From Nostoc carneum NIES-2107 (GTDB taxonomy: Bacteria > Cyanobacteriota > Cyanobacteriia > Cyanobacteriales > Nostocaceae): DNA of 64,000 bases. Shown piece by piece: positions 18,398 through 29,483 of this stretch; the stretch's first letter is position 1, and every line of letters starts with the position of its first letter. Made by a program: the position numbers and the translations under genes. Below the pieces are notes generated by a model. That model saw nothing but the letters and a program-made list of their open reading frames with translations, did not search any database and was not told the DNA's origin. The DNA lies in contig AP018180.1 in the NCBI GenBank assembly GCA_002368155.1, positions 6,094,908 to 6,158,907 of the forward strand, read 5' to 3'.

Positions 18398-19402
18398 CTA
18401 CGCTGCTTCTCCTTCTTTGGGGGCTGAGTCTTGGATAGATTCTAAATTCTTTTCTTCTGTTGTTAACTGCAAAAACACATCTTCTAGGGTAGCGCTGACA
18501 CGGCGCATTTCATATAAAGCAAATCCTGCACGGACTATTGTGGCAGCAATATCTTTTCCGGGTTCTGTTCCTGGTTGCGATATTACTCGTAAATAGGCGC
18601 GGTTTGCTGACACTGGGTGATGACTCCCAGATGTAGGAATTGATTCTACCAGACTCACACCGGATATGTTTTGCAATACTTGTTTTGCTAGGCTAGCTTC
18701 GCCTTCAATTTCTAATTCATAACCAGAGCCACCTGTCAACTGTGTCATGAGATTTTCTGGTGTATTGGTGGCGACGACTTTACCGCGATTAATAATAGCA
18801 ACGCGGCTACAAGTCATGCTCACTTCTGGGAGAATGTGGGTAGAAAGAATAATGGTATGAGTGCCGGCAAGACTTTTAATTAAATTCCGCACATCAATAA
18901 TTTGCCGGGGGTCAAGTCCTACCGTTGGTTCATCTAAAATAATCGCTGGTGGATCATGGACTATCGCCTGAGCAATCCCCACTCTTTGACGGTATCCTTT
19001 AGATAGCTTGCGGATCAGTACTTTGCGCTTATCTTCTAAATTACACCGGGCGATCGCATCTGTTACTTTATGATTGCGATCGCCTGCGGATACTCCTTTA
19101 ATTCTGGCAACAAAATGCAAAAACCCCTCCACCGTCATATCTGGATATAACGGCGGCGTTTCCGGTAAATAGCCAATCCGCTGACGCACAGCCAGAGAAT
19201 TCTCATGGACATCAAAGCCAGCAATCTTCGCCGTCCCCTTCGTCGCTGGTAAATAACCAGCTAAAATCCGCATAGTAGTAGTTTTACCAGCACCATTAGG
19301 GCCTAAAAACCCTAGAATTTCCCCAGGTTCGACATTAAAAGTCACATCAGTAATCGCTGGAGTCGAACCGTATATCTTACTTAGATGCTCAACTTCAATC
19401 AT
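18398..19402 (-). CDS. ABC transporter ATP-binding protein (GldA-like)
   Basis: A 334-aa nucleotide-binding subunit, first gene of the exporter operon. Walker A is GPNGAGKTT, the signature loop LSKGYRQRVGIAQA, Walker B AIILDEPTVGLD, and the switch His lies in ILSTHIL. The extra C-terminal 100 residues (about 220-334) match the DUF4162-like extension of ABC-2 ATPases and end in an acidic tail. It energises the GldF-like permease immediately downstream. Upstream is a 1-kb repeat region with no other gene, so the promoter is probably just before 19402. Confidence 0.94.
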   Translation of the reverse strand: MIEVEHLSKIYGSTPAITDVTFNVEPGEILGFLGPNGAGKTTTMRILAGYLPATKGTAKIAGFDVHENSLAVRQRIGYLPETPPLYPDMTVEGFLHFVARIKGVSAGDRNHKVTDAIARCNLEDKRKVLIRKLSKGYRQRVGIAQAIVHDPPAIILDEPTVGLDPRQIIDVRNLIKSLAGTHTIILSTHILPEVSMTCSRVAIINRGKVVATNTPENLMTQLTGGSGYELEIEGEASLAKQVLQNISGVSLVESIPTSGSHHPVSANRAYLRVISQPGTEPGKDIAATIVRAGFALYEMRRVSATLEDVFLQLTTEEKNLESIQDSAPKEGEAA

Positions 19403-19473
19403 CAGTCTCAGGCGATCGCGTTTTTATAGAATACCCAACAATATTAGATCACGACGTTGGGAAAAGAGGGATT

Positions 19474-19618
19474 GATTCGGGGGATTGGGGACTGGGGATT
19501 GGGGATTGGGGACTGGGGATTGGGGACTGGGGAAGGGGGAAAGGGAAAAGGGAAAAGGGGAAATTATTATTACCAATTACCAATTACCAATTACCCATTA
19601 CCAATTACCAAACCCCAG
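19474..19618. repeat. Short tandem repeat tract (GGGGATTGGGGACTG)
   Basis: Alternating GGGGATT and GGGGACT heptads, then GGGAAAAGGGAAAAG, then ATTACCAATTACC units. The same repeat class separates other genes in this window. Confidence 0.85.
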
Positions 19619-19621
19619 TTT

Positions 19622-19936
19622 GAGAAAGCAATATCGACTTTGGCTTGCTAAATATACTGAATGGAGAAAGCAAAAGCTGCTGGTGAGAAAACAATATTTA
19701 CTTTGGCTTGCTAAATATACTGAATGGAGAAAGCAAAAGCTGCTGGTGAGAAAGCAATATCGACTTTGGCTTGCTGAATATACTGAATGGAGAAAGCAAT
19801 AGCTGCTGGTGAGAAAACAATATCTGCTTTTGCTTGCTGAATATACTGCATGGAGAAAGCACAAGCTGCTGATGAGAAAGCAATATCTGCTTTGACTGAC
19901 TAAATATACTAAATGGAGAAAGCAATAGCTGCTTTA
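19622..19936. repeat. 5 x 63-bp tandem array with 21-bp sub-period
   Basis: Five direct copies starting at 19622, 19685, 19748, 19811 and 19874, each about 63 bp and diverging by a few bases. Each copy contains GAGAAAGCAA twice, 42 bp apart, so the basic unit is 21 bp. Both strands stay open across the array, but neither frame has a ribosome site or a natural start and stop. Not a CRISPR: there are no unique spacers. Confidence 0.9.
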
Positions 19937-20105
19937 GCTTACTAAATTCGACTTGATGTATTTTTTTGGTGAAGTGATGAGTTATAGCGATCGCCAACAG
20001 AAATACTAGTATAATTAAACACAGTTAGGTTAAGAAAATTAATTGATAACAAAACCAAAAAACTATTTACTCAACAAAAAACAGATCAATCATTTTGGAG
20101 GGGGT

Positions 20106-20156
20106 TTGGGGGACGCAACCGTCCCCCAATCGGGGGTTTGGGGGAGAATCCCCCAA
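20106..20156. repeat. G-rich double-hairpin repeat element
   Basis: Two adjacent inverted repeats: TTGGGGGACG-CAAC-CGTCCCCCAA (20106-20129) and TTGGGGGA-GAA-TCCCCCAA (20138-20156). This is a palindromic intergenic element of a kind scattered in Nostocales. Whether it acts as a terminator or is just a mobile palindrome cannot be told; there is no T-run next to it. Confidence 0.75.
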
Positions 20157-20410
20157 TTGAGCTAGCTTTTTACCCAACTGATAAATCAATCACCAAGGAT
20201 TTTATCTGAACTGTATCATAGTTAACTTTAGAATTTGCTAGTGATTGAATGACAAGGCGGTAAGGCATTGTGCTTGAGGAAAACACCAAAATTGAGAAGG
20301 CTGTAATTTTTAAGCATTAGCAACAAGTATTAAATTAGACTTGACAAACATTCTCTTAGGTAACTCTCTCAAGTAAAATATCTGATAAAACTGATACAAG
20401 GTTGCAGCAG

Positions 20411-23400
20411 ATGCTCCAGCGGCTTTGGCTATTAATTAAGGATTCGATTCAGCAATTATCCGGCAATGAACAGTCTATTTATAATTATTTAACAGAAGAA
20501 AAACTAGCAGAAATACGCAGAGAGTTAGAAGATACGGAGTATGAATCGTTATTTATTCATTTATTGGTAAGAGTCAATGATGAAGGCTGGAGTCGAGGAC
20601 AAGTCACAAGTTTTTTGGATGCAAATCGCATCAATCAGAGAAATTTAGCCAAATGGTTGCGTGGTTTTGGTGAAACCTTGTTAGCTTCGTCCCAAGAGAA
20701 TGATGCATTAGCGAGTCGCATAGTGCGCTTAGGGGAATTGGGTGCTGGGGAAATTAGTGATATTGCTTATGATATTGGTGTGCGCTTATTAGGGTGTGGG
20801 AAAGCAACGAACCAGGTTTTTGTAGAATCTCACCCAGCAGATGCAGAGGAAGCAAAGGAACAAGGGGACGCAGCAGCTTGGTTTAACCAAGGTAATCAAC
20901 AATTGATGTATGGTGATTTTGCAGGTGCGATCGCTTCATTGAAAAAAGCTACCAAAATCAACCCTAACTTACATATAGCTTGGTTTAACCAGGGAGCAGC
21001 ATTTTATCAATTACAGCAATTTGAGCAAGTAATTATTGCTTGTGACAAAGCCATAAAAATCAAATCTGATTTTTACCAAGCTTGGTTTAATCAAGCTACA
21101 GCATTAGAACAGTTAGGAAGGTTTGATGAAGCAGTTACTTCATTAGAGAAAGCCATAGAAGTAAAATCTGACTTCTATCAAGCTTGGTACAAACAAGCTG
21201 AAATTTTGAGCCAGTTAAAACGATTTCCGGAAGCGATCGCCTGCTGTGATCAAGCTGTAAAAATTAAACCTGATTATTATCAAGCTTGGTTCCATTGGGG
21301 CTATATATTAAATCAACATGGGCAATTTGAACAAGCAATTATTTATTACGACACAGCTATAGCCATCAAACCAGACTACTATCAGGCTTGGGTAAATCGC
21401 GGTGCAGCAATGCACTCGTTAAAGAAATTGTCAGATGCACTCATATCTTATGAGCGAGCGATAGAAATTCAACCGCAAGCTTATTTAGCTTGGCATAATC
21501 AAGGAAACATTCTCACTGAATTAGAGCAGTTTGCAGCAGCACTAAATGCATATAATCAAGCCTTAAAAATTGAACCAAATTATTATCAAGCTTGGAATAA
21601 TAAGGGTTTAGTATTAAGAAAATTGCGGCTATTTCAAGAATCAATTGCTGCTTATGATCACGCTATAGCCATCAAACCTCAAAATGACTTAGCTTGGAAT
21701 AACCGGGGTTTAACGCTGAGTGAGATGGGAGAATATAAAGCAGCGATCGCCTCTTATGACAAAGCTATCAAAATCAACCCCAACAATAAATTTGCTTGGA
21801 ACAACCGAGGCGCAGCCTTATCCGATCTCCAACTATTAGAAGAAGCGATCGCCTCATTTGACAAAGCCATAGAAATCTCATTTGACTTCTACGAAGCTTG
21901 GCTGAACAGGGGGATGACAGCTGGTAATTCTGTGAATTGCGATCGCTTGCTGGCTTTGTTGAGTACAGTAGCTATACAAAATCCTCTGCTTAACCAACGG
22001 GGTTATGAGGGAGAATTAGCCAGTTATGAGGAAGGTTTAAAGTACTGCGATCAAGACACCCACCCCAAAGGTTGGGGAAAATTATATCAAGCAATTGGTA
22101 ATGCTCTCTACTTCCGCGGCAGAGCCGATTCTCGTCCCCACAGCTATTGGTACAAAGCTGTTACCAACTACAATGAAGCACTGAAAACTCTCACAGCCGC
22201 AGATTTTCCCCATTTGCATCTAGAAGTATTACAGAATTTAATTCGCGTGCAGTTGAATTTGGGGGAAAAAGCTAAAGCCGAAGAACTCAAGCGACGGGGA
22301 ACCGATATTTTACGGCGTTTATTGGATGAGTGTAAAAGTCCTGAAAAGAAAAAGCAGTTAGCGTTGAAGTTTGCAGGCTTTCAACAGTTAACTGTGGATT
22401 TAGCCGTGCAGTCAAGAAACTTAAGTACAGCCTTGGAATTAGCAGAACAGGGAAAAAATGCTTGTATGTCTTGGCTGCTAGATGGGTGGAGTGATGAATC
22501 TCCTAAATGGGTGGAGATGAAACAATTACTCAGTCCCCATACTGCCATAGTTTATTGGCATCTCAGCCCAGCCGCCTTACATACTTTCATCTTCCAGCAC
22601 AATACCCCATCACTCATTGTCTTAGGAGCAAAATCTCTAACACCAGTGCAACGTCTGCGTGATTTTGAAAGCTGGCTGAAAATTTGGAATGAACAATACG
22701 CCAATTATCGCCAAGGTAAAGACAAGCATAGCGAAGATGCAAAAACTTGGCGCGACAATTTACCCGCAATGCTGAATCAACTGAGTGAAATTCTCGATAT
22801 CAACGCTATTGTTTCCCAGATTTCAGATATTACTCAGCTAATTCTGATTCCTCACCGCGACTTACACCGCTTTCCTCTGCATACCCTATTTCCCCCAAAA
22901 TTTACCATCAGCTATTTACCCAGCATTCAATTAGGCTTAATCTCCCAAACCCGCAATGAAAATAATCAGCTACTCAGTATCGAACATCCCAACAGCGCAG
23001 GTTATCCCGAACTAGAATTTGCACAAGTTGAATCGGAAGCGATTTGTCGCATTTTTACCCACAACACCCGCCAGCGTTCTGAGGAAGCGACAAAAGATGC
23101 ACTCATCAATGCTTTGCCTCAAGGCTACGGTATTCTACACTTTACCGGACATGGCGAATACAATTTCCACAATCCAGCTTTATCTTACTTAGCCTTAGCA
23201 GATGAGGATAAACTGACTCTCACAGATATCCGTGATTTTGATTTACGCAGCTATCAACTCGTTAGCCTAGCTGCTTGCGAAACGGCGATTACAGGGAATC
23301 ACACCATCACCACTGAATATGTTGGACTTGTCAGTGGTTTTATGAGTTGTGGTGTTGCTTCTGTTGTCAGTACCCTGTGGACAGTAGAATCAGCCGCTAG

Positions 23401-23677
23401 TGCTTTAGTGATGATTCAGTTTTACCAACGATTACAACAAGGTAAATCAAAGGTAGTAGCTTTAGCTGAAGCTACCCAATGGCTGCGGAATGTCACTCAC
23501 GATGAACTAGCACAATGGTATGCAGAGGAAATTGCCAAACTTCCAGAAGAAGAAGGTATTTTACGCCGTTTTTTATTACGTCATTTAAATAACCTTAAGA
23601 ATCAACTAGAATCCATTAATCAACCCTATAATCACCCATACTTCTGGGCAGCTTTTACAATTACTGGTATCTTTTAA
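20411..23677 (+). CDS. TPR-CHAT caspase-like protease
   Basis: A protein of about 1088 aa. Residues 1-135 are an N-terminal helical domain (SIYNYLTEEKLAEIRREL, LAKWLRGFGETLL) that may be an adaptor or effector-associated domain. Ten TPRs with the AWxNxG consensus span about 150-500. A spacer region follows, and the C-terminal CHAT peptidase covers about 790-1088. The catalytic pair is intact: His914 in HFTGHGEYN and Cys956 in LAACETA. CHAT proteases are clan CD relatives of caspases, used in bacterial immunity and programmed death. The frame opens at TTG 20402, but ATG 20411 has AAGG 10 nt upstream. It was probably once followed directly by the gene now at 26533. Confidence 0.92.
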   Translation: MLQRLWLLIKDSIQQLSGNEQSIYNYLTEEKLAEIRRELEDTEYESLFIHLLVRVNDEGWSRGQVTSFLDANRINQRNLAKWLRGFGETLLASSQENDALASRIVRLGELGAGEISDIAYDIGVRLLGCGKATNQVFVESHPADAEEAKEQGDAAAWFNQGNQQLMYGDFAGAIASLKKATKINPNLHIAWFNQGAAFYQLQQFEQVIIACDKAIKIKSDFYQAWFNQATALEQLGRFDEAVTSLEKAIEVKSDFYQAWYKQAEILSQLKRFPEAIACCDQAVKIKPDYYQAWFHWGYILNQHGQFEQAIIYYDTAIAIKPDYYQAWVNRGAAMHSLKKLSDALISYERAIEIQPQAYLAWHNQGNILTELEQFAAALNAYNQALKIEPNYYQAWNNKGLVLRKLRLFQESIAAYDHAIAIKPQNDLAWNNRGLTLSEMGEYKAAIASYDKAIKINPNNKFAWNNRGAALSDLQLLEEAIASFDKAIEISFDFYEAWLNRGMTAGNSVNCDRLLALLSTVAIQNPLLNQRGYEGELASYEEGLKYCDQDTHPKGWGKLYQAIGNALYFRGRADSRPHSYWYKAVTNYNEALKTLTAADFPHLHLEVLQNLIRVQLNLGEKAKAEELKRRGTDILRRLLDECKSPEKKKQLALKFAGFQQLTVDLAVQSRNLSTALELAEQGKNACMSWLLDGWSDESPKWVEMKQLLSPHTAIVYWHLSPAALHTFIFQHNTPSLIVLGAKSLTPVQRLRDFESWLKIWNEQYANYRQGKDKHSEDAKTWRDNLPAMLNQLSEILDINAIVSQISDITQLILIPHRDLHRFPLHTLFPPKFTISYLPSIQLGLISQTRNENNQLLSIEHPNSAGYPELEFAQVESEAICRIFTHNTRQRSEEATKDALINALPQGYGILHFTGHGEYNFHNPALSYLALADEDKLTLTDIRDFDLRSYQLVSLAACETAITGNHTITTEYVGLVSGFMSCGVASVVSTLWTVESAASALVMIQFYQRLQQGKSKVVALAEATQWLRNVTHDELAQWYAEEIAKLPEEEGILRRFLLRHLNNLKNQLESINQPYNHPYFWAAFTITGIF

Positions 23678-23681
23678 CCAT
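23659..23681. repeat. 23-bp direct repeat, left copy
   Basis: Identical to 26512-26534. It covers the last codons and stop of the CHAT gene plus four bases. Together the two copies bracket the caspase-GUN4 cassette. Confidence 0.9.
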
Positions 23682-23805
23682 ACAAAATTTAAATCTATTG
23701 AAAATGTAGTTTTCCCGTGTCACTGTCTTCTCAATTTGAGAACCCTACAGTTTACTGGGATCTAGCAGCAGCAATGCTGTTAATGGCATTCAACATTGTT
23801 AAAGT

Positions 23806-25734
23806 TTACAAGTCTCGGCGCGAGAGAAGAGATGGCACACACACCCAGCCCCCACCAAAGTCATGATGTTCTCCCTCCCCTCTAGCTAGTGTTGCAGGAA
23901 GGTGTCCTTCGGGAGCATGAATATCAAAAGTGAGGTCTGTGTAGTAAAGCCATTTCGCACCCATCGTCGTTACGGCTTTTTCTTGGAATCCCAGCTTTTT
24001 ATTAATTTCCTCTAAAAAGTCTCCGATATTCTTCTGTATAACTGTCTCATATGTCGTCTCATACGTTCGCCAGCCGATGCGATCGCCTAACTTTGTGTAG
24101 TCTTTTGCTACACTTTCCCAAATGCGCTTCTGCACACTAAAGCCAAAGCGTCCATCACTGTATTTAACCCACAGTTGGTCAATGGTGCGTAAGTCAGTGG
24201 AAGGAAAGTTTTTAATCGATTCGGGATCAAGCCAGAGTTTTTGTTCTCTGTCAACGACTTTGAGCATCACTGCCAGAGTTTCTTGATCTGCTTCTTCCCA
24301 CTTTCTAGCTTTAAGTAAATCGCGCAACTCCGTATAGTCTATACCCTTCTCTGAACTGAGATCATTATTTTGCTGCGTTGATTTTGTTGTGGTTGTTTGA
24401 ATAGATTGTTGTTCTTGTCGCTGCTTCTTGGCTTCTTGTTGTTGTTTCTGGTACTCTGCTTGTTTTATGGTTAAAAGTGGTGCTTCAATTCGCTCTACAT
24501 CTTCATCATTGAGTCCTAATGACTGCTGAAACTGTTTTAATCCATTGCGGACATATTCATCTAGCGGGTATTGCACTTTAACTGCTTTTGTAAATTCCTG
24601 CTCATAATAGCGTAGGCTATTTTCATACTCTTCTTTTTCTTGTTGTTTCTGTATCTGAAGCTGTTTTCGATATTCCGCTTTTTTAGCAGATGTAATCTCT
24701 AACTCAATTGGTGCTACATCCTCATCTCTAAGACCTAAAATATCCTGCTGATAATCCTTCAGTATCTTACGAGTATGTTCATCCAAGGGATATTTTTGCT
24801 CAACTACCTCAACAAAAGCTTGTTTGTAACTTTCCAAGTTTGCAAAGCGTCTGCGTAAAGGTTCTAATACTTCGTTTTCTATTTGCTCAGCTTTTTCATC
24901 TGTAATTCCAGATGTTTTTCGTTTCGGCTTTAATATTAAGTAAGAAAGTTTACTAAGTTCACCATTTTGGGCATATTGTTCAACCAGTTTGCGATACTCT
25001 GATTCTGGATTTTTGGGGGCATAAGCCAGTAATATATTGAATCCTTCCCTATCCAGAATGATGTCTGGTGTCATCTTCGGCTTTACCGCTTGGACTTTTG
25101 CCTTAGCGTAAGCGTGCAGTTCTTGTACATGAATATTTCCATCGTTATCTGTATCTGCTGCGCCTGTCTCAATTCCTTCAACTAGATATTGAGTGTAGAG
25201 CGAAAGCGGTAAACCTTCTTGTTCAAACGAAGTTTGAGTTGCACTGGAAGATGTGAGAACAACTCGTCCCTCCGCGCCTAGCTGCTTTTTGATATCGACA
25301 CCAATACTTTTTGCTCGCCAACCTTGAGCGATCGCACCACTGTAGCAAGCATCTAAAATCAAAACTTGCCGTTTAGCATAGCAATTGTTTGATTGCCCTC
25401 GAATAAAACTTGCGTCTACAGCAGTAGCTTCAAAATCCTCTTTAGCTGTATTTCGAGTTGCTAAATAGAGATGATCTTCATCATTAGTAATACCATGACC
25501 AGAGAAAAAGAATAATACTAAATCATCTTTAGAAGCTTCTCTAAACAGCTTTTGAATTGCCCTTCTCATGGCGATCGCATCGGGATTCAGCAGCCGTTCT
25601 ACCTGTTCAAAACCTCCCAGGTTTGGATCTTGTAAAACTCGCTGCATAGCTTCGACATCATTGAGCGCAGATGACAGGGGAGGAATACCTTGACCGTACT
25701 CACTGACTCCAATCAGTAGTGCTATCTTAGCCAT
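23806..25734 (-). CDS. Caspase-like protease fused to GUN4 domain
   Basis: About 642 aa. The N-terminal metacaspase-type C14 peptidase (about 1-235) keeps its dyad: His in FFFSGHGIT (residue 80) and Cys in LDACYSGA (residue 130). A linker (about 240-450) holds two copies of a unit with YPLDExxR and LGLxDEDV in Gln/Glu/Lys-rich coiled-coil sequence. The C-terminus (about 470-642) is a GUN4 domain (LRDLLKARKWEEADQET, DLRTIDQLWVKYSDGRFGFS, LYYTDLTFD, GHLPATL). GUN4 binds Mg-porphyrins and stimulates Mg-chelatase; here it may be the sensor that gates the protease. The ATG at 25734 overlaps the upstream gene by 8 bp; a GTG at 25743 is possible. Confidence 0.93.
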   Translation of the reverse strand: MAKIALLIGVSEYGQGIPPLSSALNDVEAMQRVLQDPNLGGFEQVERLLNPDAIAMRRAIQKLFREASKDDLVLFFFSGHGITNDEDHLYLATRNTAKEDFEATAVDASFIRGQSNNCYAKRQVLILDACYSGAIAQGWRAKSIGVDIKKQLGAEGRVVLTSSSATQTSFEQEGLPLSLYTQYLVEGIETGAADTDNDGNIHVQELHAYAKAKVQAVKPKMTPDIILDREGFNILLAYAPKNPESEYRKLVEQYAQNGELSKLSYLILKPKRKTSGITDEKAEQIENEVLEPLRRRFANLESYKQAFVEVVEQKYPLDEHTRKILKDYQQDILGLRDEDVAPIELEITSAKKAEYRKQLQIQKQQEKEEYENSLRYYEQEFTKAVKVQYPLDEYVRNGLKQFQQSLGLNDEDVERIEAPLLTIKQAEYQKQQQEAKKQRQEQQSIQTTTTKSTQQNNDLSSEKGIDYTELRDLLKARKWEEADQETLAVMLKVVDREQKLWLDPESIKNFPSTDLRTIDQLWVKYSDGRFGFSVQKRIWESVAKDYTKLGDRIGWRTYETTYETVIQKNIGDFLEEINKKLGFQEKAVTTMGAKWLYYTDLTFDIHAPEGHLPATLARGEGEHHDFGGGWVCVPSLLSRRDL

Positions 25735-26122
25735 TTCCACCACCCATTGCGGCTAACAGGTCTTTTGCTATTCTTTCACCTTCCAGTAGCTCTTGTCGGC
25801 TTTTAGCCTCAATGTTGACTTCTTTATCTCCCGCTTTGACAGTAATTTTCATTGGTTTGTCACCCAAGCGATCGCCCAGAAAGCTTAAAAACCCTTTGAC
25901 ATTCTTTATACTAACCTCAGCCGTCAGCACGCCGATTAAAGTGGCAAACCCTGGCTTGCTTCCTGCTTCTGGGTTCATATCTTCCGCACGATCAGCTTTC
26001 TCCACCTCATCCAGTTCCCGAATTTCCCGCAGCAGCTTGCTAGCTATTTTGTGCCGTCTCTCATCATCTAACTCTGGGTCATCAACAGCAAAAGTAAATT
26101 TAATCGTGGGTTCGCCTGTCAT
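25727..26122 (-). CDS. EACC1-like effector-associated constant component
   Basis: A 131-aa protein first in a two-gene unit with the caspase-GUN4 gene. The pattern fits the EACC1 family of bacterial conflict systems: a beta strand (PTIKFTFAVDD), an acidic helix region (DDERRHKIASKLLREIRELDEVEKAD), a Gly-rich middle (GSKPGFATLIGVLTAEVSI), then a helix and beta hairpin (MKITVKAGDKEVNIEAKS). EACC1 accompanies variable protease effectors, including caspase-like ones, as a shared core component. The frame extends to a TTG at 26215, but ATG 26122 has GGAG 6 nt upstream. The family call is by eye and would need a profile search. Confidence 0.68.
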   Translation of the reverse strand: MTGEPTIKFTFAVDDPELDDERRHKIASKLLREIRELDEVEKADRAEDMNPEAGSKPGFATLIGVLTAEVSIKNVKGFLSFLGDRLGDKPMKITVKAGDKEVNIEAKSRQELLEGERIAKDLLAAMGGGNG

Positions 26123-26236
26123 CGTCAACTCCAAGGTTTCGTTACCTACGCGGTGATAAACTACACCTTCAAATTTTAAGATTCTGTAACCGAATAATCC
26201 AATTAAAATTAACAAATTACCGTGCTCTGGTTACTG

Positions 26237-26304
26237 TCAGTTTGGGTATAGGCTTGATTGTTGATGCACTAACATATATGGCTCTTCGCATCTTTCGCTG
26301 CTAA
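26237..26304 (+). pseudogene. 3' fragment of a second copy of the 2-TM membrane protein gene
   Basis: Nearly identical to the last 23 codons of the intact gene ending at 28413. Both contain AGTTTGGGTATAGGCTTGAT, TCTTCGCATCTTTCGC and a TAA at the same place. The similarity continues about 25 bp past the stop (GCGGTTA). Only the C-terminal transmembrane part is present. It is convergent with the EACC1 gene and inside the inserted cassette. Confidence 0.88.
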
Positions 26305-26339
26305 ATTACTGAAAGTACCAACGCGGTTAGTAAACGAGG

Positions 26340-26470
26340 TGTGTTGTCGTGTAGTGCAACGCACCCTTTGGGTTCAGTAGTAGCCTGCGGAGGGAAACCC
26401 ACCCGCAGCACTGCTTCACTGTCAACAATTCTCGGTGCGTTACCCTACGGAATAACATACCCTACGTTAA
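26340..26470. repeat. Inverted-repeat intergenic element (MITE-like)
   Basis: Ends carry CAACGCACCC at about 26358 and GGTGCGTTACCCTACGG at about 26434, in inverted orientation, around a central CCTGCGGAGGG / CCCACCCGCAG stretch. This class of GGTGCGTTA palindromic element is common in cyanobacterial spacers. It sits at the edge of the cassette next to the truncated gene copy. Confidence 0.6.
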
Positions 26471-26511
26471 ATTTATATTTTGTGATAAGTATCGAATTTT
26501 TTTGTTGACTG

Positions 26512-26534
26512 AATTACTGGTATCTTTTAACCAT
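26512..26534. repeat. 23-bp direct repeat, right copy
   Basis: Identical to 23659-23681. In this copy the sequence runs straight into ATGCAACC, the start of the 140-aa gene, so the ancestral junction was CHAT stop codon, CC, then ATG. Confidence 0.9.
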
Positions 26535-26955
26535 GCAACCAATAGAAGTATCTGAACTGAAAGCCTTTATTTTGGCACTATCCCAACTTGATGCACCATT
26601 ACCAAATGATATCCAAGCCAAGGTAAATACAATTAAGATTCCTGGGGATATTAGTAAACTGTATGCGATCGCCTCTAGTTATCCACCCCTAGCTACAGCA
26701 TATAACCAAGTCTGGGATAATTTAGATGCGATCGCCAAAGTTCGCAGTAAAGGCGTTGATAGCATACCTGAGTATGTTCCTGAGCCTCTCAATACAGAAA
26801 TTGACAATTCTTCTATAGAAGTTGCAGCAGCGTTAGTGCAGTTAGACAAAAAAGTAGATCGTAATAAATTGGCAATCATATCTAACCAAATATTTCAAGC
26901 TTTAAATTCTGTTAAAACAGCAAAAGATGTCATCTCAACTATTCTTTCTCAATAG
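26533..26955 (+). CDS. Small unknown protein of the CHAT locus
   Basis: A 140-aa, probably all-helical cytoplasmic protein I do not recognise. It starts with PIEVSELKAFILALSQLDAPLP and ends VKTAKDVISTILSQ, with no membrane segment or catalytic motif. Its ATG lies within the 23-bp repeat that duplicates the end of the CHAT gene, so it was originally two bases downstream of that gene. It is now about 2.9 kb away and must use a promoter in 26216-26532. It is probably a partner or regulator of the CHAT protease. Confidence 0.78.
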   Translation: MQPIEVSELKAFILALSQLDAPLPNDIQAKVNTIKIPGDISKLYAIASSYPPLATAYNQVWDNLDAIAKVRSKGVDSIPEYVPEPLNTEIDNSSIEVAAALVQLDKKVDRNKLAIISNQIFQALNSVKTAKDVISTILSQ

Positions 26956-27003
26956 TTAAGCATTTTGAACTACAACTTATTGCAGGTTAATAAAATTCAC
27001 AGA

Positions 27004-27030
27004 TAAGGGCACAACAATGTTGTGCCCTTA
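27004..27030. terminator. Perfect 12-bp hairpin between two genes
   Basis: TAAGGGCACAAC-AAT-GTTGTGCCCTTA, a perfect inverted repeat with a 3-nt loop, 48 nt after the 140-aa gene. No T-run follows on the plus strand (TAATCATCTG). It may act as an attenuator or RNA-stabilising hairpin rather than a full terminator. Confidence 0.6.
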
Positions 27031-27066
27031 TAATCATCTGTACTTCAGGGAGTGAAAATCTTTTAT

Positions 27067-28413
27067 ATGAGTCCACAATATGAGTTAATTTACCCGACTA
27101 TTGATTTATTTCTATATAACCTGAAAGAAGGTTTAGGACAAGATGAAGCCAAAATCGCAGAAAATCGTCAACTATTTTGGCAAAAAATTTATGGTAGCCA
27201 GTTAGATAATCGGCAACTAGAACAACTCCAACAAGCTGAAATTGATGGTTCTGATTATCATGAGTTAATTAGTAATCCTAAAATTATTCCTTTTAAATCC
27301 CCATTAGATGGTTATTATTACCCGGTACAATTAGGCGATACTTACGGACTCCAAATAGACTGCACTGCAAATTACATCAAAGATTATAAATACTCACCTC
27401 AACCTGTTAGCTGTTTACAAAAAGTACAAACAGAAATATTCTCGAAAATTAATACCCAAGAAGGTAAACTGGGTCAAACTTGGTTCGTTTGGGGTCAACT
27501 GGCGATAGATAACCAAGATGCAGCAGCTACTGCTCAAGCTTGCTACGAGCAATTAATACTAGCTTCAGAGCAAAATTGGCAAGCTGATTTGCGAGGACAA
27601 GGAGAATTTTTTGGTGGAACTATATTTGAACTTTGGCGGCTTCCTTCCGAAGCCCAGCAAAGCGAAGGTTATCACCTATTAATTTGTTTATTTCCCTATC
27701 AACTGAAAACCGATGCTATCAGAGAAGCCAATCAAAAGCTATATCCAGAATTGATGCAATTATTTAGATATAGAAATAAAGGTATTTGGGCTTATAATCA
27801 AAGTCGCGCTATTAAAAGTAATTTAAAAACAGTAGCGCAAGTCTCTCAAGGCATAATTAGTAATTTAAATCAAGAATCTCAAAATTCCAAAATTGATATT
27901 AGTAATTTACAAAATATCCTTAAACAAACACCAGAAATATTGTTAAAATATACCAATAACTTAAGTTATTTAAATGACCAATATAGAACTGTTGAGATTA
28001 ATATAGGCAATTATCAAAAACGCTGGCAAAAGCTGCTAATATTAGAAGCTAATAGTGATTGGCAATTTTTGCAAGCATTCAGTGAATTTGCTCACGAGAA
28101 ATTTTTAGTCCAAATCGAAACAGACCAAGCTTACTACAGCCCAGGCTTAAATTTAGTCGAGAATTATATCAAGACCATCCAAGGAATAATTGACCTAGAA
28201 CAAACCAAAAGCGATCGCACTCTCAACACTACTATTGCGATCGCAGGTATCGGTCTCGCAACCAGCCAAATCGCTTCTGCTGTCATCTTGGCAGAAATCC
28301 CCAAAGACCAAAACCCTACTTCCTACCAAACCACAGCCTTTAGCCTCAGTTTGGGTATAGGCTTGATTTTTGCTGCACTAACCTATATAGTTCTTCGCAT
28401 CTTTCGCCGCTAA
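27067..28413 (+). CDS. Membrane-anchored unknown protein of the CHAT locus
   Basis: About 448 aa. A large soluble part (residues 1-385) includes a Trp-rich stretch ([35 protein letters not shown]) and coiled-coil-like helices (about 245-310). Two C-terminal transmembrane helices follow ([21 protein letters not shown] and [20 protein letters not shown]) with a short basic tail. This plan, a cytoplasmic domain on a C-terminal helical hairpin, would put a death or defence effector partner at the membrane. I do not recognise the family. A GTG at 27052 is an alternative start; ATG 27067 is chosen though its GGGAG is 14 nt away. A 3' fragment of a paralogue lies at 26237. Confidence 0.82.
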
Positions 28414-28577
28414 ATTACCGAATGTCCCCATGCGGTTATTTCACCTTCTAATACTTTTCGGTTAAGAGGGAAAAAGCGAAAGGAAAAAGGAAAACAAAAT
28501 ACCTTTAACCCTTGTCCCTTCCCCTTTTCCCTAAACTAAATTATGAATTCCAAATACTTAACTGGATAGTATTGCTT

Positions 28578-29483
28578 ATGTCCCAACGCAGAATCCAAAG
28601 TATCTACACCGATGGCGCTTGTACAGGAAATCCTGGCCCTGGGGGTTGGGGTGTAGTCGTTTATTTCAATGATGGCTCAATTCACGAAATCGGCGGCGCA
28701 TCATCCCACACCACCAACAATAAAATGGAAATGCAAGCTGCGATCGCAGGTCTGCAATTTTTGCAAACATCTGGACAAACTCAACCGATCACCCTTTATA
28801 CCGATAGCGAATATTTAATTAATTCCGTTACCAAGTGGATCAAAGGCTGGAAACAAAGAGGTTGGAAAAAAGCAGATGGTAAACCCGTGCAAAACCAAGA
28901 CCTGTTAGAAACTTTGGACGAACTTAATAGTTATATAGTAAAGTGGGAATATGTCAGGGGTCATTCTGGTAATGTAGGTAACGAGCGCTGCGATGTCATT
29001 GCTCGTACTTTTGCTAGTGGTAGAGTTCCAGATCTTAAACAATCTTTTACCACAGATGCCGATCAATCTTTACCACAAACTAATCAAATAAATGTAGCAA
29101 AAGTAACTGAATCTTCAGCAACCTCTACAATAATTGACACAGGGACACCAGAAAGCAGTACTCTTGCATCAAATATAACAACTATGGAGCCAACTATCAC
29201 AAACTCTACTAATCCAATTGAAGATAAGCCGCCTGGCCTCCGGGTAACACAGCTGCGTGACCTAGTTGAAACCCTACGGATTGCTGATGAAATCGCCACC
29301 AAAGGCTACCTCATCACCAGTTCCGAACTTGCAGACCTCATGGATGTTCACGCTAGCGCCGTCACCAGTCGCGGCGACCAATGGCGCTGGCGTAACTGGA
29401 TAGTTTCACGGGTAAGACGCGAAGGTAATCAAATTCTCTGGGAATTGGAACGCGGCGATCAAGTAGGAGGTGAGGAGGAGTAG
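28578..29483 (+). CDS. rnhA: Ribonuclease HI with C-terminal extension
   Basis: A 301-aa protein that degrades RNA in RNA-DNA hybrids. The RNase H fold occupies about 1-150, with the acidic catalytic set in IYTDGACTGNPGPGGWG, KMEMQAAI, LYTDSEYLI and NERCDVIAR. A Ser/Thr-rich linker (about 165-225) leads to an added C-terminal domain (about 225-300: GYLITSSELADLMDVHASAV, WRWRNWIVSRVRREG) that looks like a helical nucleic-acid-binding module. The usual length is about 155 aa, so this is a fusion. The frame opens at a TTG (28512) in a repeat tract; ATG 28578 is the natural start. Confidence 0.93.
   Translation: MSQRRIQSIYTDGACTGNPGPGGWGVVVYFNDGSIHEIGGASSHTTNNKMEMQAAIAGLQFLQTSGQTQPITLYTDSEYLINSVTKWIKGWKQRGWKKADGKPVQNQDLLETLDELNSYIVKWEYVRGHSGNVGNERCDVIARTFASGRVPDLKQSFTTDADQSLPQTNQINVAKVTESSATSTIIDTGTPESSTLASNITTMEPTITNSTNPIEDKPPGLRVTQLRDLVETLRIADEIATKGYLITSSELADLMDVHASAVTSRGDQWRWRNWIVSRVRREGNQILWELERGDQVGGEEE

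Follow-up and report, generated by a model that had tools for sequence, protein, structure and literature searches.

A caspase-GUN4 cassette in a CHAT protease operon of Nostoc carneum NIES-2107 probably entered a junction that was already split

Comparative analysis of a 64,000-nucleotide stretch of Nostoc carneum NIES-2107 (GenBank assembly GCA_002368155.1, contig AP018180.1, positions 6,094,908 to 6,158,907 of the forward strand; the whole stretch is hereafter the window) was centred on a CHAT protease operon in which a caspase-GUN4 cassette lies between two exact 23-base-pair (bp) direct repeats. In the reading that we favour with reasonable though far from complete confidence, a repeat-rich spacer split the CHAT gene from the following gene of 140 amino acids (aa) before the cassette was there, the cassette entered later by recombination, and the trio of CHAT gene, 140-aa gene and 453-aa gene would constitute a protease-controlled membrane effector. 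The window genome (G000, 9.36 Mb) was compared with its relatives, among which G003 belongs to the same genus and is probably Nostoc linckia FACHB-104. The features of the locus are as follows, in window coordinates.

20402-23677, plus strand: TPR-CHAT protease gene (1091 aa) with TPRs, a Pfam CHAT match of 164.9 bits and the CHAT dyad motifs GHG and AACET; by tree, the orthologue of the first CHAT gene (CHAT1) of G003.
23659-23681, plus strand: left copy of the 23-bp direct repeat, formed by the final CHAT codons and stop, from a repeat search.
23682-23741, plus strand: native 3' flank of the CHAT gene, outside the cassette, by its likeness to the DNA that follows CHAT1 in G003.
23742-26219, no strand given: the cassette as common to other genomes, from the limits of similarity to G002, G005 and other genera.
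23806-25743, minus strand: caspase-GUN4 gene (645 aa) of the EACC1-associated caspase type (NCBIfam NF047832, 170.9 bits against a cut-off of 140; Pfam Peptidase_C14 and GUN4), with the caspase His and Cys motifs SGHG and DACYSG.
25727-26215, minus strand: EACC1-like small gene (162 aa from a TTG, the start being uncertain), upstream of the caspase gene in most other-genus sites examined.
26237-26329, plus strand: truncated duplicate of the 453-aa gene's 3' end, 88% identical to 28346-28438.
About 26339-26480, no strand given: repeat-rich spacer, probably old, made of dispersed repeat pieces, its right part common to the cassette-free G003, G004 and G006.
26512-26534, plus strand: right copy of the 23-bp repeat, running into the ATG of the 140-aa gene, with an intact counterpart in locus L164.
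26533-26955, plus strand: 140-aa gene for a small protein, all-helical in its model, the conserved partner of the 453-aa gene.
27052-28413, plus strand: 453-aa gene with a GTG start (an ATG at 27067 would give 448 aa), for a membrane protein predicted to be CorA-like from its model, its PDB matches and two C-terminal hydrophobic helices.

The sequence AATTACTGGTATCTTTTAACCAT occurs on the plus strand at 23659-23681 and 26512-26534, identical at 23/23 positions (27 bp if one mismatch is allowed), the left copy at the end and stop of the CHAT gene and the right copy running into the 140-aa ATG at 26533, just as the original prediction, made from the letters of the window alone, had described it. 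At up to 3 mismatches the window holds these two matches and 100 dinucleotide shuffles of the window hold none, while a search of the whole 9.36-Mb genome returned these two copies alone. The repeat exceeds chance, and the concern that it might be a common dispersed repeat is ruled out because the genome has only two copies of it. The contents of the interval had likewise been read correctly, namely the caspase-GUN4 and 162-aa genes on the minus strand, the partial second copy of the 453-aa gene and the pieces of dispersed repeats. The right copy had also been said to look like an uninterrupted operon, and such operons were found in relatives: the CHAT stop overlaps the 140-aa ATG or lies within 2 bp of it in 25 of 43 measurable loci, with a gap of 13 to 1,409 bp in 18, and the intact junction of Tolypothrix FACHB-123 (L164), AATTACTGGTATCTTTTCCTCATGCAACC, where the CHAT gene reads into the 140-aa ATG, differs little from the right copy in the window.

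The claim that did not survive is that the entry of the cassette duplicated the 23 bp, since junction copies exist where the cassette is absent and the cassette edges, near 23742 and 26219, lie off the repeats. The cassette-free loci of G003 and G035 have the CHAT and 140-aa genes parted by 170 bp and 304 bp, respectively. In G003 an exact 14-mer of the junction stands on both sides of the gap (L029:7350 and 7533); in G035 the junction copies on both sides are alike at 18 of 23 positions, where 300 random 400-bp windows reach 11-16 at best, and the right copy is present with a single intact CHAT gene upstream. In the window a distance remains between the cassette and each repeat: 60 bp of 3' flank of the CHAT gene on the left, and on the right about 290 bp made up of gene-copy tail and spacer. 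Dispersed repeats lie in the spacer, whose right end, TACGTCAAATTTAT or a near variant, is common to G000, G002, G003, G004, G006 and G035, which makes it likely that the spacer descended from a common ancestor in these relatives. The 23-bp repeat therefore seems to predate the caspase genes rather than to be the scar of their landing; a convincing scar in one genome can mislead when, as appears to be the case here, an exact repeat was in place before the cassette that it encloses.

The edges of the cassette can be placed by comparison. On the left the limit is either 23742, where similarity to G002 resumes, or 23797, as for most of the other-genus cassettes that match in that part; on the right it falls at or before 26186 in other genera, mostly at 26183-26184, and at 26219 in G005. 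Beyond the right edge come 93 bp of 453-aa gene tail, then about 180 bp of old spacer and then the right repeat copy. The 60 bp inside the left copy are 98% identical over 59 bp to the DNA after CHAT1 in the cassette-free G003, with 27 bp matching the DNA after its second CHAT gene (CHAT2), and among 58 genomes searched they match G000, G003 and, weakly, G063, with no others; because the same sequence follows CHAT1 in G003, these 60 bp belong to the CHAT gene. In G002, which has the same cassette, CHAT is separated from it by 1,155 bp that include a DUF4351 gene.

What stood at this place earlier is suggested by G003, where tandem TPR-CHAT genes, CHAT1 and then CHAT2, are followed by the 140-aa and 453-aa genes (L029:833-7370). 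A tree of 18 proteins makes the window CHAT orthologous to CHAT1, with CHAT2 as the sister (support 100/98 and 100/100), and CHAT2 of G003 occupies the place that the cassette has in G000 and G002. Because the position filled by the cassette in G000 and G002 is that of CHAT2 in G003, a replacement explains the locus better than a simple insertion would, and from these comparisons replacement by recombination is the likeliest manner of arrival. At the same locus in G005 the cassette abuts a stretch of about 230 bp that spans the 3' end of a 453-aa gene, followed by rnhA, and the 13 kb fetched there gave no nucleotide match to CHAT. This arrangement makes recombination with a G005-like allele attractive, and homologous recombination is the route that we propose with moderate confidence.

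Perfect identity of the two copies calls for a step of its own. The junction copies of G002 are alike at 19 of 23 positions against 23/23 in G000, and TTTTAACC is present in both G000 copies and absent from all six relatives compared. Late gene conversion between the copies in G000 probably took place, and it would explain both their perfect identity and the earlier CHAT stop.

Overall, the following history is proposed, resting on the observed gene order, edges, cassette-free split forms, intact forms and independence of the cassette pair. In the ancestral host operon the CHAT gene would have overlapped the 140-aa gene, with the 453-aa gene next in line. The CHAT and 140-aa genes would then have been parted by a repeat-rich spacer that left a junction copy on each side, with no cassette present. 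In the lineage of G000 and G002 the EACC1-like and caspase-GUN4 pair would have entered between the CHAT gene and the spacer, with a stray 453-aa gene 3' end beside it, its source probably being an allele arranged as in G005, where the pair already abutted a 453-aa gene tail, and the means homologous recombination. In G000 the two junction copies would later have been made identical, probably by gene conversion. The route, the loss of the second CHAT gene and the conversion are the parts that we infer.

Several observations weigh against this history. As 23-mers the G003 copies agree at only 16 of 23 positions, no better than chance, and the other 17 loci with a gap between the CHAT and 140-aa genes have no duplicated tail (10-15 of 23; a value of 23/23 for L212 is an overlap artefact), so that junction duplication is not general and is confined to a few relatives. 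L164 is unsplit although its 453-aa gene (75%) is closer than that of G035 (70%); the splits in G035 and in the genus of the window could hence be separate events involving the same type of repeat. The second CHAT gene, seen in G003 alone, may have been gained there rather than lost in G000. As for the donor, the stray tail resembles all the tails compared to a similar degree (71.7-83.2%; G005 83.2, G003 82.3, the window's own 80.2), and at the seven columns that separate tail types it has the state of G001, G005 and G007 in 3 and neither state in 4. These columns sit at or beyond the end of the aligned stray tail, and tail type was rejected as a sign of a G005-like donor. Moreover, the join to the 453-aa gene tail differs between G005 and G000 beyond AACAAATTA, by which a single shared event is not proved for the two.

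Three other explanations of the locus were weighed. If the cassette were a mobile unit inserted at the junction with a 23-bp target-site duplication, an exact repeat bracketing the interval, intact junctions in other genera and a pair found alone elsewhere would all be expected, and all are seen. We nevertheless consider this scarcely probable, given junction copies without a cassette in G003 (the exact 14-mer) and G035 (18/23), the 60 bp of native flank on one side and the 453-aa gene tail and spacer on the other that separate cassette from repeats, and the diverged copies of G002 (19/23). Transposase, integrase or recombinase was recognised in neither of the two genes tested between the copies (a 114-aa antisense frame within the 162-aa gene lies outside this test), and the extra gene of G002 has DUF4351 only. 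The right copy could otherwise be the final codons of a deleted CHAT2, the ancestor having had CHAT1 and CHAT2 in tandem and CHAT2 having been excised when the cassette came in. The order CHAT1-CHAT2-140-453 in G003, the sister relation of CHAT2 to CHAT1 and the position of the cassette in the place of CHAT2 are in line with this; yet in G003 itself 170 bp part the end of CHAT2 from the start of the 140-aa gene with the junction 14-mer on each side, and G035 has its right copy with one intact CHAT gene upstream, and we regard the explanation as unlikely.

The cassette might also stand where it does for its function, a divergent caspase being a normal alternative to CHAT upstream of the 140-aa gene, so that the cassette would serve the 140-453 module. 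A divergent caspase is indeed found upstream of the 140-aa gene in 15 of 73 loci, in the same orientation as the cassette, and the caspases are from related families. The caspases examined in those loci are caspase-STAND fusions, however, and score 64-81 bits (four scored) against the NF047832 cut-off of 140, and the cassette caspase scores 171; the 8 to 15.6 kb fetched around each of twenty other-genus cassettes, in several cases cut short by a contig end, hold no 140-aa or 453-aa match and no strong match to CHAT; and G005 has the cassette with just a 453-aa gene tail. We hold functional placement to be very unlikely, and return to the earlier split with later recombination as the preferred account.

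The CHAT–140-aa junction looks like a recurrent insertion point. All three gaps longer than 1 kb (L207:4399-5502, L208:4638-5489 and L214:2166-2972; 3 of the 43 measured loci) contain an Rpn-family gene (106-136 bits, cut-off 52.1), and the gene between CHAT and cassette in G002 (L028:5542-6366) gave a DUF4351 match only and no Rpn match. Of the 140-aa gene, G006 (L054:7767-7806) and G004 (L055:8657-8696) retain only some 29 bp from its start, joined to the 3' part of the 453-aa gene as a scar of deletion in the 140-453 module.

The cassette was also sought away from this locus. The 162-aa gene and the 21 bp beyond it have DNA matches in 61 of 217 family genomes (E<=0.001), many of them short and weak, and 20 of 27 other-genus loci were fetched with flanks, the stretches being 8 to 15.6 kb long and several of them shortened by contig ends. 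At 18 of these 20 sites a caspase gene comes next after the small gene, the remaining two comprising one contig edge and one site without a caspase match, and the 20 sites gave no 140-aa or 453-aa match at E<=1e-5 and no CHAT match at E<=1e-15. By this distribution the EACC1-like and caspase pair is an independent system; together with the intact host operons, its independence supports the original view that two separate protease systems are nested here. A short DNA end common to several caspase genes (23797-23832) was considered as a recombination signal and rejected, as it is mostly the coding end of the caspase protein, GUN4-type in appearance at its C-terminus.

The passages of Kaur et al. 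2020 (PMC7159879) on System 4 describe EACC1 as a two-gene conflict system with a small 5' gene and a 3' gene for an N-terminal caspase and a variable C-terminal domain, an arrangement that the window pair resembles, its variable C-terminal part being GUN4. Unlike the small protein as portrayed in those passages, the 162-aa protein has no family over cut-off in Pfam or NCBIfam and no clear central glycine-rich transmembrane helix; its hydrophobicity has an N-terminal peak only (1.69), which depends on the uncertain TTG start.

For the 453-aa family the best 80 of 151 loci were surveyed, of which 7 had too little upstream sequence and 73 were assessable. In the supporting alignments, A1 was made without L124, L132 and L137, A2 comprised 61 of 72 long 453-aa family proteins, a few of them taken from a later start codon, and A3 comprised 61 of 64 sequences of suitable length. 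A profile search of open frames found a 140-aa relative with the 453-aa family in 65 of the 80 loci; on this co-occurrence the two genes are a conserved pair. Upstream of the pair the 73 loci have a same-strand CHAT gene in 51, an opposite-strand caspase gene facing away in 15, neither in 7 and both in 0, which gives the 453-aa gene a protease neighbour in 66 of 73. The divergent-caspase loci are L221, L223, L224, L229 and L231-L241, of which L221 and L223 seem to be duplicates from a single organism. Six of these caspase genes were examined and all are STAND fusions, five with nSTAND1 and WD40 repeats and one with NB-ARC and TPR; in the five nSTAND1/WD40 genes the caspase domain was found by profile search, with three also scored by NCBIfam, and is absent among the 25 families listed. 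Both protease motifs were found by simple pattern in 4 of 7 divergent caspase genes. Unusually, the window combines CHAT on one side with a caspase pair on the other, and this caspase belongs to the EACC1-associated group. Across cyanobacteria, then, an unnamed gene pair swaps its partner between CHAT and caspase (caspase-STAND in the six examined). Two 453-family genes (L225 and L228) come from outside cyanobacteria, in gammaproteobacterial metagenome bins, one of them named Parabeggiatoa.

Library searches gave nothing over cut-off for the 140-aa and 453-aa proteins in Pfam, NCBIfam or PADLOC (PHROGs was not among the libraries). Among the papers listed from open-licence PubMed Central for nested defence cassettes in cyanobacteria and for CorA with CHAT (for the latter 20 listed of 2,790 and of 120), none gave a description of the CHAT-140-453 trio; in the main text of Kaur 2020 (PMC7159879) neither CHAT nor CorA occurs as a word, and in Kaur 2021 the letters of CorA occur only inside "coral".

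Structure prediction was applied to both members of the pair. The model of the 453-aa protein (448 residues from the ATG, 61 sequences; mean predicted local distance difference test score, pLDDT, 84.2) combines an alpha/beta domain with three helices, each about 50 residues long, and two further helices at the C-terminus. In a fold search of the PDB all 10 matches at E<=0.001 are CorA, and ranks 1-20 are CorA or Mrs2; the best Foldseek match has E 2.1e-4, probability 1.00 and a template modelling score (TM-score) of 0.22. Low TM-scores throughout the top 20 (0.11-0.27 by query length) also count against the membrane-effector part of our reading; such values could be expected if the domains are differently placed, and the CorA match is suggestive only. 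A PDB sequence search with the 453-aa alignment gave 9 weak matches, the best at E 0.0036. Two hydrophobic peaks are found in 38 of 61 rows of the 453-aa family at the threshold used.

CorA proteins have a signature motif, GMN, where their first membrane helix ends. In the last 130 residues GMN is found in 0 of 61 rows of the 453-aa family, two rows having G[VILM]N there and one (L228) having GMN elsewhere, and by this motif test the 453-aa protein is not a member of the CorA family. It shares with CorA and Mrs2 a predicted alpha/beta domain, long helices and two C-terminal hydrophobic helices, but differs from these magnesium channels in lacking the C-terminal GMN and in having protease genes as neighbours in 66 of 73 loci. 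CorA-type effectors of type III CRISPR are a further comparison for the predicted fold. The 453-aa protein could perhaps work like a CorA channel, judging from the model. The 140-aa model (all-helical, pLDDT 79.7) has no PDB fold match at E<=0.001, the best being E 0.54.

The window CHAT protein resembles Csx29, the TPR-CHAT protease of type III-E CRISPR (Craspase), in having TPRs followed by a CHAT domain, with a match to the Csx29 model at 2.1e-17; it is unlike Csx29 in scoring 63.3 bits against a cut-off of 300 and in having the 140-aa and 453-aa genes as neighbours. Its GHG and AACET motifs contain the residues that we take to be the catalytic His and Cys of CHAT. In bacterial gasdermin systems a protease gene adjoins a membrane-acting effector. 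The likeness of the present locus to those systems, a protease beside a putative membrane effector, is by analogy only; the predicted 453-aa fold is CorA-like, and there is no gasdermin among the 50 of 745 PDB matches listed.

From this make-up a working scheme can be suggested. The TPR-CHAT protein would act as a sensor of stress or of a phage cue and would cut or release the 140-aa protein, the 453-aa protein or both; the 140-aa protein would be an adaptor or a substrate; and the CorA-like 453-aa protein would alter membrane permeability, thereby halting growth. That CHAT and caspase proteins take each other's place upstream of an unchanging gene pair supports a step set off by a protease. 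The EACC1-like and caspase-GUN4 genes would form another switch, separate from the first, with GUN4 as its sensor of tetrapyrroles. More tentatively, the host operon could be an undescribed conflict system in which a 140-453 module is driven by interchangeable caspase-fold proteases, either a same-strand TPR-CHAT or a divergent caspase-STAND-WD40 of apoptosome-like make-up, and in which cleavage of one component of the module would open the membrane protein and kill or arrest the cell. If the CorA-like protein is the protease target, this would be a counterpart in bacteria of protease-triggered killing through the membrane, on a non-gasdermin fold. By way of background, one report describes a phage-resistant Nostoc substrain with a mutation in the CHAT gene all2170, which its authors tie to the loss of nitrogen fixation (PMC10811720).

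The surroundings of the operon are also changeable. An Rfam scan of 19400-28600 gave 0 matches. The stretch from the ABC genes to rnhA varies strongly among relatives, in keeping with the expectation that the locus would be variable between them, and at the same locus G001 (L053:5305-10712) has two long tandem genes with signal-like starts. Upstream of the CHAT gene, window positions 20010-20217 hold a dispersed element of about 200 bp that contains runs of G and C, with more than 100 places listed genus-wide at about 84-93% identity. Further upstream, at 19620-19990, lies an array of a 63-bp unit, which if translated would correspond to 21-aa repeats, with related copies elsewhere in the genus.

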